Source: Nitrososphaeraceae archaeon (GTDB taxonomy: Archaea; Thermoproteota; Nitrososphaeria; Nitrososphaerales; Nitrososphaeraceae). From it: a stretch of 64,000 nucleotides of DNA. Positions 54,796 through 63,383 of the stretch are shown here, one piece after another. The translations under genes and the position numbers were made by a program. The stretch spans positions 62,001 to 126,000 of the forward strand of contig WHTU01000003.1 of the NCBI GenBank assembly GCA_009377575.1. Direction: 5' to 3'. Below the pieces are notes generated by a model that saw only the letters and a list, made by a program, of their open reading frames with translations, was not told the origin of the DNA and made no database searches. Within the stretch, counting starts at the first letter, position 1, and every line of letters begins with the position of its first letter.

Positions 54796-55191
54796 TCATT
54801 GACTAATTTCAGAGACTATTTCGCCGTTCAGAGGTTCAATGAAATATGTGAAATTATTTATCCTATCCGTTATTTTCCATGCGAAATAATTGGCATTGTT
54901 TATAGTCGTGTGAGAATCACCTAAATGCGTGCCTACATAATTGGAATTAAGGTTTGATTCGTAGAATGACCCATTTCCTTTTATGTGTACAAATTCCGTA
55001 ACAAAATCTTGTCGATCGGAGGAGTTTAGATTTTTTTTGTCAATCACAATTGAAACGGCATTTTCCTCTGATAATGGTGTTCTACTTAGAGTAGGCCTTT
55101 CGAGTGAAGTAACTATCCCTATATAAACTAAAATTGTCACAAGGATACTAATAGTCACGGTTACTGCAAATTTCTTATCTATCTTCAACAT
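54796..55191 (-). CDS. Membrane-anchored PepSY-like hypothetical protein
   Basis: This 131-residue protein has a single N-terminal transmembrane segment (about residues 9-29, VTVTISILVTILVYIGIVT) and an extracytoplasmic domain. Its C-terminus reads NYFAWKITDRINNFTYFIEP and LNGEIVSEIS, like the strand pair of PepSY domains (WKV...Y.DA..GEI). The function of such single PepSY proteins is unclear; protease inhibition or envelope roles are proposed for the family. The gene borders the unusual 1.2-kb gap on its right. Confidence 0.65.
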   Translation of the reverse strand: MLKIDKKFAVTVTISILVTILVYIGIVTSLERPTLSRTPLSEENAVSIVIDKKNLNSSDRQDFVTEFVHIKGNGSFYESNLNSNYVGTHLGDSHTTINNANYFAWKITDRINNFTYFIEPLNGEIVSEISQ

Positions 55192-55382: not shown

Positions 55383-55496
55383 CTATGTCATCAGTTTATC
55401 TGATATGGCCCCTTCTTCCTCGAATAATGTGATATTTTCCCAGACATGAACATGTTGTCCACCTTCATACTTCAAAGTCGCCGCTATCAGATCCAT
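55383..55496 (-). pseudogene. Possible small gene or 3' part of a frameshifted gene (37 codons)
   Basis: On the minus strand an ATG frame reads MDLIAATLKYEGGQHVHVW and continues with an acidic end before a TAG. Its composition looks like a real globular fragment. Upstream the coding-like sequence continues in the neighbouring frame (ILYERNELSVNENAYGVIK), which ends at a TGA just inside this gene. A single-base frameshift at about 55495-55515 would join the two into a protein of 60-70 aa or more. It may be a broken gene, or a short intact gene. Confidence 0.35.
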
Positions 55497-55623
55497 ATAG
55501 GACTTTCCATTAAGGATTTTATAACACCATATGCATTTTCATTTACCGATAGTTCATTTCTTTCATATAAAATGGCAATATTATTTTTTAGTGTAAACAA
55601 GAAATCCACAAACAAAAGGTAGG

Positions 55624-55673
55624 TAGGACGACCATGAATGAAGGATGGTCGGAAAAGCCGTTGTTGGTCGTCC
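55624..55673 (+). repeat. Inverted-repeat pair 1 of the GGTCGTCC cluster
   Basis: TAGGACGACC and GGTCGTCC(ACC) enclose about 32 bases. Inside the loop lies another partial copy (ATGGTCGG) that can also pair with the left arm (CGACCAT), so two mutually exclusive stems are possible. Confidence 0.65.
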
Positions 55674-55774
55674 ACCTGTGTGCAGTCCCTGTAATAAGGG
55701 CTAATATCATATGATTTGCCAACCTTAAGTTAATTATGCATTTAGATCGTTTAGTTGTATTTTGCAAATTGGGG

Positions 55775-55824
55775 TAGACGACCAAACAGTAATGCCTTTA
55801 ACTGCCATTCAATTCATGGTCGCT
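55775..55824 (+). repeat. Inverted-repeat pair 2 of the GGTCGTCC cluster (imperfect)
   Basis: TAGACGACCA and, 34 bases later, TGGTCGCTTGA form the most degenerate pair of the cluster. The left arm starts 151 bases after that of pair 1. Confidence 0.45.
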
Positions 55825-55926
55825 TGACTTTAGTTAGAAATGAAAAAAGATAACCATGTTCCGGAATGTCTTTTATGTAAAAATGCAATACCTAATGTGA
55901 GTTCATAGAACTGCATATCGTTTGGG

Positions 55927-55967
55927 TAGGACGACCCTTTCCTTTCTCTTCGTCCCCGGTCGTCCTA
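55927..55967 (+). repeat. Inverted-repeat pair 3 of the GGTCGTCC cluster (perfect 10-bp arms)
   Basis: TAGGACGACC and GGTCGTCCTA are perfect reverse complements separated by 21 pyrimidine-rich bases. The left arm lies 152 bases after that of pair 2. Confidence 0.75.
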
Positions 55968-56012
55968 TCTTTATTTCCACACGCGAATAAGGGAGACAAG
56001 GTCCGAATGGGA

Positions 56013-56055
56013 TGGACGACCAGCACTGTTATCCGTTCAATGACCTGGTCGTCCT
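56013..56055 (+). repeat. Inverted-repeat pair 4 of the GGTCGTCC cluster
   Basis: TGGACGACC and GGTCGTCCTA enclose about 25 bases; the arms pair over 8 bp. A T-run follows the right arm after a few bases (CTTTAGTTTTTTAG), as expected if this is the 3' end of a transcript. Confidence 0.65.
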
Positions 56056-56126
56056 ACTTTAGTTTTTTAGATTGAAAGGACAGTTCTGAAAAGCCTAATA
56101 TTCGAAAATGAGAAGTTTAATACGAG

Positions 56127-56183
56127 TTCGTCACGAATGGGCGGGGTAGATACCGCCGCCCAGACAATCGAACACGCGACGAA
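56127..56183 (+). ncRNA. GC-rich compound hairpin, candidate structured RNA
   Basis: TGGGCGG (56138-56144) pairs with CCGCCCA (56156-56162), and inside it GGT pairs with ACC around an AGAT tetraloop with one bulged G, giving ten pairs. Outer arms TTCGTC and GACGAA at the ends can add a second helix. Such a GC-rich stem in AT-rich intergenic DNA suggests an RNA gene, regulatory leader or protein-binding site. No known RNA family was recognised. Confidence 0.35.
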
Positions 56184-56401: not shown

Positions 56402-57043
56402 ATGAGCACAGATCACAATATCCATTTGATAATTAGAAGTACTCGACTAGACGATATTGAAAAAATAGTGAAATTGCAGCAGGAATCATTTCCAATCTTA
56501 GCTCGATATGACAATATCTGGCATCCGGAAGAATTGAAAAGTCACCTCCAGATATTTCCACTAGGCCAATTTGTTGTTGTTGAAGAGGATGGAGAGGTTG
56601 TTGGCTCTGCAAGCACATTGATAGTAACCCTTAATCCAGAATATGCTGAACATACTTGGAAGAGAATCACCTCAGACGGTATGTTTACTGACCATAATCC
56701 CAACGGAGATAGCCTTTATGGGGCAGATATATCAACACACCCAAAATTTAGACACGAAGGCATCGGGAGTATGCTATATGGCGCAAGAAAGGAATTAGTT
56801 CTAAGGTTAGGTCTGAGAAGAATGATCAGTGGAGGCAGATTATTTAACTACCAGGACTATGCAGACAAGATGTCTGCTTTTGAGTATGCCAATAAAGTGA
56901 TCAATGGAGAATTGCACGACCCGGTTTTATCATTTGAGCTCGATAATGGGTTCAAATTTATTAAGGTACTTCCAGAATATCTGGATGACATACGTTCACA
57001 AAATTATGCTAGTTTCATTGAGTGGTTAAATCCTCAATTTTGA
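56402..57043 (+). CDS. GNAT-family N-acetyltransferase
   Basis: This 213-residue acetyltransferase uses acetyl-CoA to modify an unknown substrate. The N-terminal part (IRSTRLDDIEKIVKLQQESF), the central strand QFVVVEEDGEVVGSAS and the acetyl-CoA loop RHEGIGSMLYGARKEL fit the family. A C-terminal region with NGFKFIKVLPEYLDD is also typical. The ATG is at 56402. The amidohydrolase gene follows by 22 bases, so the two probably share a transcript and may act on related small molecules. Confidence 0.88.
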   Translation: MSTDHNIHLIIRSTRLDDIEKIVKLQQESFPILARYDNIWHPEELKSHLQIFPLGQFVVVEEDGEVVGSASTLIVTLNPEYAEHTWKRITSDGMFTDHNPNGDSLYGADISTHPKFRHEGIGSMLYGARKELVLRLGLRRMISGGRLFNYQDYADKMSAFEYANKVINGELHDPVLSFELDNGFKFIKVLPEYLDDIRSQNYASFIEWLNPQF

Positions 57044-62803: not shown

Positions 62804-63383
62804 ATGAAAAAACCTGAACATGAGGACCCAATAATTGAATATCTCGACACAGTGAGGAATACCTACCTCAAATGAATGTAAAGTTCGATTAAACAGTTTT
62901 AGAAAGTTTGTAAACAAGGAATTAAACCTCTCTATAAGCCAGTTAATCCAAAAACTAGATCAGGGGGCTCTTGATGTCTATAATTTGCTTTCAAAATACT
63001 CGAAATATCTCTGTTCCACTGATAATGGACACGATCTTTCCCCGACTACAATTAAACTACGTATCAGTACTGTAAGAGGATTCTTGGAATCACGATCCGA
63101 CAAGATAGAAATATCACCACGAAAATTCAGACTTCGGGTCAAAATTCCAAAGATTAGTAAAAGAAAAAAAGATGCCTTATCAAAGACCGAAGTAATAAAC
63201 ATAATTAATTCGTGTTCAGATATTAGGTTAAAAACGTATGTTCTGCTTCTTGCCACCACTGGAATGAGGGCTACTGAAGCATTATCTACTCGAATTTGCG
63301 ATTTTGATCTCGATTCGGTTCAAGACCTTACGGTTTTAGATGTTCAGATGTCAGACTTCACTGTAATTGCGGTTTCTTGGTAG
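62804..63383 (+). pseudogene. Decayed tyrosine recombinase/integrase (frameshifted and truncated)
   Basis: An ATG frame gives MKKPEHEDPIIEYLDTVR and NTYLK, then a TGA. Shifting by one base at about 62870 continues with NECKVRLNSFRKFVNKEL, the core-binding (SAM-like) domain, and TTGMRATEALSTRICDFDLD with the first catalytic Arg. The frame then ends at a TAG without the H-x-x-R, second His and Tyr block. The gene therefore has a one-base insertion near its start and has lost its C-terminal catalytic half. Intact family members are near 300 aa or longer. It is the remnant of a site-specific recombinase, presumably from a mobile element. Confidence 0.75.

Follow-up and report, generated by a model that had tools for sequence, protein, structure and literature searches.

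A single intergenic gap in this Nitrososphaeraceae genome carries a dense cluster of inverted repeats, and the question it raises is whether these repeats act as DNA, for example as binding sites for a protein, or are transcribed into structured RNAs. We examined them in the context of the whole 64-kb stretch of DNA analysed here (hereafter the window; G000:C314:62001-126000), which comes from a 3.89-Mb genome in 380 contigs. All four arm-loop-arm pairs of a preliminary description of this locus are present: pair 1 at 55624-55675 (loop of 32 nt), pair 2 at 55773-55822 (with an imperfect right arm, GGTCG), pair 3 at 55926-55968 (loop of 21 nt) and pair 4 at 56012-56057 (loop of 25 nt). Their host gap measures 1.2 kb and is bounded by a short minus-strand ORF (54796-55191) and an acetyltransferase-like ORF (56402-57043). 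The excess of the motif in this gap is also borne out: GGACGACC occurs six times in the window, where 0.42 copies are expected, with every copy inside one 430-base stretch, and none of 100 shuffles of the window reached six copies (maximum 3).

One check set beforehand was whether the motif is equally dense elsewhere. It is not: across the 3.89-Mb genome the 7-mer GACGACC shows no enrichment (209 copies, versus 367 for the reversed control), so the cluster is not explained by density elsewhere. The paired form, GACGACC-N15-45-GGTCGTC, occurs ten times in the source genome versus zero for its reversed control. The arms are conserved in related genomes as well: each of the five genus genomes has the paired pattern, whereas 65 other members of the family lack it. 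One exact pair on another contig (L039:1576-1628, G000:C369; GGACGACC...GGTCGTCC) was rejected as a coincidence, being located inside a coding gene that encodes PGRPK...GRPA; the product has AT-hook-like GRP motifs, and the DNA mimics the arms.

Each hairpin belongs to a longer unit that can include a promoter

A nucleotide search with the gap as query revealed a second short repeat, at about 55843-55888 of the window, that recurs beside hairpins at other loci. The order of the resulting unit is constant: a promoter (GATAACCAWGTTCCGGAATGTCTTTTAT), an unconserved spacer of about 20 nt, a leader and a stem-loop, often followed by T-rich sequence. The promoter consists of a perfect TTCCGGAA dyad with a TATA-like box immediately after it, the leader often contains GTTCCTA or GAGTT, the stem is of the type GGTAGGACGRCC/GGYCGTCCTACC, and loops are mostly 14-35 nt long. 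The RNA predicted for such a unit is about 65-90 nt in length, with a leader that is conserved, a covarying stem of 12 bp and a variable, pyrimidine-rich loop. The regular spacing of about 152 bases that had been described for the hairpins is real, but it is not a property of the hairpins only: it is the length of the whole unit of promoter and RNA, and thus about one gene length.

The promoter pattern, AACCNNGTTCCGGAANNTCTTTT, has 52 matches with up to three mismatches in the five genus genomes, versus 10 for the reversed control, and the exact core GTTCCGGAAN2-3CTTTTA occurs only four times in the 3.89-Mb genome, always at units. Between related units, promoter identity averages 95%. The centre of an archaeal TATA box lies about 27 nt upstream of the transcription start (PMC5316973). 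In the units, a conserved block starts about 23-26 nt past the TATA-like box, close to the distance typical of archaea, and it is here that we would place the transcription start site. The unit therefore has what a small-RNA gene should have, a dedicated promoter correctly spaced from the predicted start. The TTCCGGAA dyad is probably the site of a regulator. A CRISPR array, already discounted in the preliminary description, is rejected here too, because the arms are inverted instead of direct repeats and every intact unit comes with a separate promoter.

We scored individual units with two models: R1, a covariance model of promoter and RNA, and R2, an RNA-only model without the promoter. As read from its sequence, the cluster in the window is a short tandem run in which unit 3 is intact, units 1, 2 and 5 are decayed, and unit 4 is promoterless; all five are on the plus strand. 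The promoter of unit 3 lies at 55849-55877 (GATAACCATGTTCCGGAATGTCTTTTATG, the TTCCGGAA dyad followed by a TATA-like CTTTTAT) and its predicted small RNA, of about 78-82 nt from the putative start, at 55897-55975 (fold z-score -4.19). The hairpin of this unit (55924-55970) has a 13-bp stem, GGGTAGGACGACC/GGTCGTCCTATCT, and a 21-nt pyrimidine-rich loop, CTTTCCTTTCTCTTCGTCCCC; R1 gives 103.3 bits over 55849-55974, and R2 gives 67 bits over 55898-55975. The RNA region of unit 4 spans 55985-56064, with a hairpin at 56012-56057 (R2, 44.9 bits over 55980-56064). Its promoter is absent in the window but present in G068 (L109:3032) and G066, and by this sequence comparison unit 4 has lost its promoter relative to the sister genome.

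The remaining units are more degraded. Unit 1 retains a strong hairpin (pair 1; 55620-55677; fold z-score -3.48; R1, 17.1 bits over 55548-55681) with no clear promoter, which is either decayed or absent. Unit 2 (pair 2) has an imperfect hairpin at 55770-55830, a degenerate or absent promoter and a fold z-score of 0.09, which is not significant; it is probably decayed. Unit 5, at 56079-56170, keeps a remnant promoter (CAGTTCTGAAAAGCC...) and a GGGCGG...CCGCCC stem, scores only 8.6 bits with R1 (fold z-score -2.79), and resembles the better-preserved following unit in G067 (L107:1692, minus strand). The preliminary description lacked the promoter at 55849-55877, this fifth, decayed unit and the genome-wide dispersal of the unit. 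It had also proposed an RNA switch in which a third copy of the motif within pair 1 (GGTCGG, 55646) competes for the same arm, yet that copy reads GGTCTG in the closest relative, G068, so a competing-arm switch is not conserved.

Stem covariation and strand asymmetry argue for RNA genes

When 25 units are aligned by sequence only (alignment A1), one stem pair is A-U in 14 units, G-C in 7 and G-U in 4, with none broken, and a second is A-U in 14, G-C in 5 and G-U in 4. Covariation is stronger still in alignment A2, although A2 was fitted to the structure. A further alignment, covering just the RNA, has 88% of cells paired, versus 24-57% for slid versions. On the predicted transcript strand, stem changes either compensate one another or yield G-U; the units thus have the conserved secondary structure with compensatory changes that is looked for in small-RNA genes. 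On this strand, G-U pairs outnumber A-C mismatches by 33 to 5 over all cells, and by 13 to 3 when distinct stems are counted (p=0.02). Such an excess of G-U on one strand points to RNA, as it would not arise in a DNA palindrome. Of 37 units, 21 (~57%) have a T-rich tract beyond the right arm; on the other side, with the complementary strand read, the number is 7.

Conservation follows the proposed gene structure. Between unit 3 and the syntenic unit of G066, identity is 56% in the upstream flank, 97% in the promoter, 58% in the spacer, 100% in the leader, 92/100% in the stem, 100% in the loop and 47% in the tail, and the single stem change, A to G, keeps pairing as G-U. Over 11 unit pairs, mean identity is 95% for the promoter, 73% for the spacer, 90% for the leader, 91-94% for the stem, 86% for the loop and 65-68% for the flanks; the RNA-region values in these averages are inflated, because some pairs were picked by RNA similarity, which does not affect the syntenic comparison of unit 3.

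Could the repeats nevertheless be protein-binding DNA palindromes, forming a multi-site operator or a chromosome-anchoring locus with GGACGACC and GGTCGTCC as half-sites? Perfect inverted arms clustered in a single intergenic gap would suit such a locus. However, the arms vary in concert (from GACGACC/GGTCGTC to GACGGCC/GGCCGTC), G-U is far commoner than A-C mismatches on one strand, single copies are scattered among unrelated neighbours, a fixed promoter stands ahead of the hairpin, and the half-site has no genome-wide enrichment. The operator and the recombination or anchoring locus that had been suggested earlier also fail to predict the promoter, the strand asymmetry and the start of conservation at the transcript start, and we consider DNA palindromes of this kind highly improbable. 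The third suggestion made at that time, a set of structured RNAs, agrees with the covarying stems, the prevalence of G-U over A-C on the transcript strand and a promoter at the right distance. The units are very probably RNA genes, as judged from these sequence features. Two observations weigh on the other side: a clear T-rich tract is present in only about 57% of units, and within the cluster of the window the majority of copies are promoterless or decayed.

The units are multicopy and confined to one genus

At E<=1, R1 finds 29, 14, 30, 14 and 15 matches in the five genus genomes; at E<1e-3, the source genome has about 17 copies, which are almost all intergenic and have no obvious shared neighbours. 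Among 65 other Nitrososphaeraceae genomes, the best R1 match reaches only E=0.0037, and none is convincing. R2, at E<=0.05, detects the RNA in all five genus genomes versus none of the 65 others in the family. Since R2 lacks the promoter and is also limited to the genus, the restriction is independent of the promoter. Among 84,980 species genomes, an exact match to the promoter pattern is present in four only, Nitrososphaerales archaeon TH526, TH5895 and TH5896 (the TH genomes being from PMC7603488) and plot3_rep3_bin15, and the same exact pattern had no match in 2.9 million viral contigs. The window has no Rfam match at the gathering threshold, and nine unit-bearing loci have none at E<=1; ARAGORN predicts neither tRNA nor tmRNA in the window, and the same holds for eight loci with units.

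Across 400 genomes of the class, R1 gives weak matches outside the genus, the best (E=7e-5) in another family, and the RNA part has no clear match in the other-family genomes with such weak matches. Two of these matches, at L267:1500-1530 and L268:1500-1530 (G328:C9:52172 and G355:C47:1530), share an identical intergenic TAACCATGTTCCAGAAATTCTTTATA followed by a similar TTAGGACATT...GATCC. Their genomes belong to another family, probably Nitrosopumilaceae, and to different genera. These loci may represent a distant use of the unit promoter before another RNA, and the exact TAACCATGTTCCAGAAATTCTTTATA in two genomes outside the genus provides a lead that the promoter may predate the genus.

One alternative for a structured RNA with a conserved 5' part is a cis-acting leader, such as a riboswitch or attenuator-like element, that controls the downstream gene. 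In one sister genome (L185), a weak promoter match does precede a small zinc-ribbon-like ORF. Yet units can be tandem and often have a T-rich end, and in the source genome they lack any recurrent or nearby gene downstream in the same orientation, making cis-acting leaders another very improbable explanation.

Loop sequences vary among subfamilies yet persist at individual loci

The loops are rich in pyrimidines (C 29%, T 34%, G 14%) and contain recurring motifs, CCTTTC and ACAAATTC. They differ between subfamilies, and every loop examined is retained at the corresponding locus of sister species; the earlier statement that the loops are not homologous therefore applies within the cluster, but not between species. 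Comparison of L181 (G068:C526) with L192 (G000:C221) is instructive, because their leaders are 100% and their promoters 93% identical while their loops are only 44% identical, which suggests that loops are exchanged between units. The L192 loop partly resembles that of unit 4 in the window.

Multiple dispersed copies in variable positions, some in tandem, together with this loop exchange and the partly decayed copies of the window, might also be produced by a non-autonomous mobile element (a MITE or an IS200/IS605-type palindrome) spreading with its own promoter. Against this, no terminal repeat or target duplication is seen beyond the hairpin, the 2.9 million viral contigs lack the exact promoter, and leader and loop are retained at the same locus across species whose flanks have diverged. 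Units at the same site in sister species imply vertical inheritance. We regard a mobile element as very unlikely, although of the operator or anchoring, mobile-element and cis-leader explanations, each of which fails at least one test, mobility is the least well excluded.

Proposed function of the RNAs

The computation supports the unit with its promoter and strand, a stem that covaries, a leader and loop that are conserved, and a range limited to the genus. We infer from the sequences that the units are transcribed, regulated through the dyad and active in trans through the loop. The cluster is thus likely to consist of tandem genes of a multicopy, genus-specific, co-regulated small RNA, with trans action via the loop the probable mode. 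An intact gene would use its own archaeal promoter, with the TTCCGGAA dyad upstream of the TATA-like box, to drive a transcript of about 65-90 nt. The common dyad implies common regulation, and one shared promoter would switch on every copy at once. In each RNA, a stable stem would display an exposed, G-poor, pyrimidine-rich loop, different in each subfamily, that could pair with target RNAs or bind a protein. Loops that are subfamily-specific yet conserved by locus fit a role in target specificity.

How might the loop act? Pairing would suit its composition, as pyrimidine-rich loops could pair with translation-start regions rich in purines, like those of the LhrC family (PMC4132741). When three genomes were searched for a sequence complementary to the entire loop of unit 3, only the loop itself was returned, and pairing of leader with loop in a pseudoknot is no better for a unit's own partners than with the leaders of other units or with shuffled loops. 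With no long complement and no leader-loop pairing above chance, nothing direct backs a base-pairing mechanism. The RNAs could instead bind a protein, as a decoy or scaffold, for example for an Sm-like protein on the U/C-rich loop. The recurring CCTTTC and ACAAATTC motifs in pyrimidine-rich loops, and the lack of an extended complementary target for the unit-3 loop in the three genomes, would be consistent with protein binding, but a single protein ligand would not need loops that differ strongly between subfamilies, and the subfamily-specific loops are conserved by locus. We consider protein binding rather unlikely, and put action by loop base-pairing at a little below an even chance; between the two, pairing is moderately favoured.

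A more speculative reading, and one we think unlikely to hold in full, is a modular archaeal RNA regulon, in which one regulator on the TTCCGGAA dyad would drive joint expression of 14-30 small RNAs whose loops serve as interchangeable targeting modules. All copies would share the stem, and loops would have diversified by exchange between copies. Its range would be a single genus of soil Thaumarchaeota, apart from two genomes of a different family, probably Nitrosopumilaceae, that may carry a trace of the promoter.

Comparison with known systems

LhrC of Listeria monocytogenes has five copies, and LisRK is needed for all five (PMC4132741). The units resemble LhrC in having several homologous copies and CU-rich, guanosine-poor stem-loops, and would, like it, be under one common control. 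In contrast, LhrC is bacterial and its loops carry one common UCCC motif directed against a common target (PMC4132741), whereas the archaeal units have a different loop in each subfamily; the likeness claims no sequence relation. For sRNA162 of Methanosarcina mazei, too, action on other RNAs via an exposed region is proposed, but the targets of this small archaeal RNA have been characterised by experiment (PMC3510493), whereas the present units are known from sequence alone and, unlike sRNA162, are multicopy with a dedicated, conserved promoter. A short common promoter motif also occurs in a related genus, as the copper-limitation motif TTCSGSMTTTGWACYANT of Nitrososphaera viennensis, but that motif has another sequence, stands before protein genes, is sometimes reversed, and is not the TTCCGGAA-TATA unit (PMC7785015).

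A limited literature search, with subscription journals and preprints outside its coverage, returned no description of this RNA family. The family is new, but of a known kind, that of genus-specific, multicopy small RNA genes, with a dedicated promoter that is unusually clear. Soil ammonia-oxidising archaea are important in nitrification, and apparently little is known about RNA-based regulation in them. The family now offers a direct handle, as its promoter marks the regulon, its stem marks the RNA and the loop of each copy is a testable specificity region. It also illustrates how a compact RNA gene duplicates, decays and swaps loops inside one genus.

Two other features of the window were observed. 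Adjoining the RNA cluster, positions 55412-55561 (minus strand) have about 70-75% identity to many loci of the genus and have the look of a disrupted member of a repeated gene family. Further downstream, at 62985-63383, a short ORF resembles, by eye, part of a tyrosine recombinase and is possibly a remnant of an integrated element.
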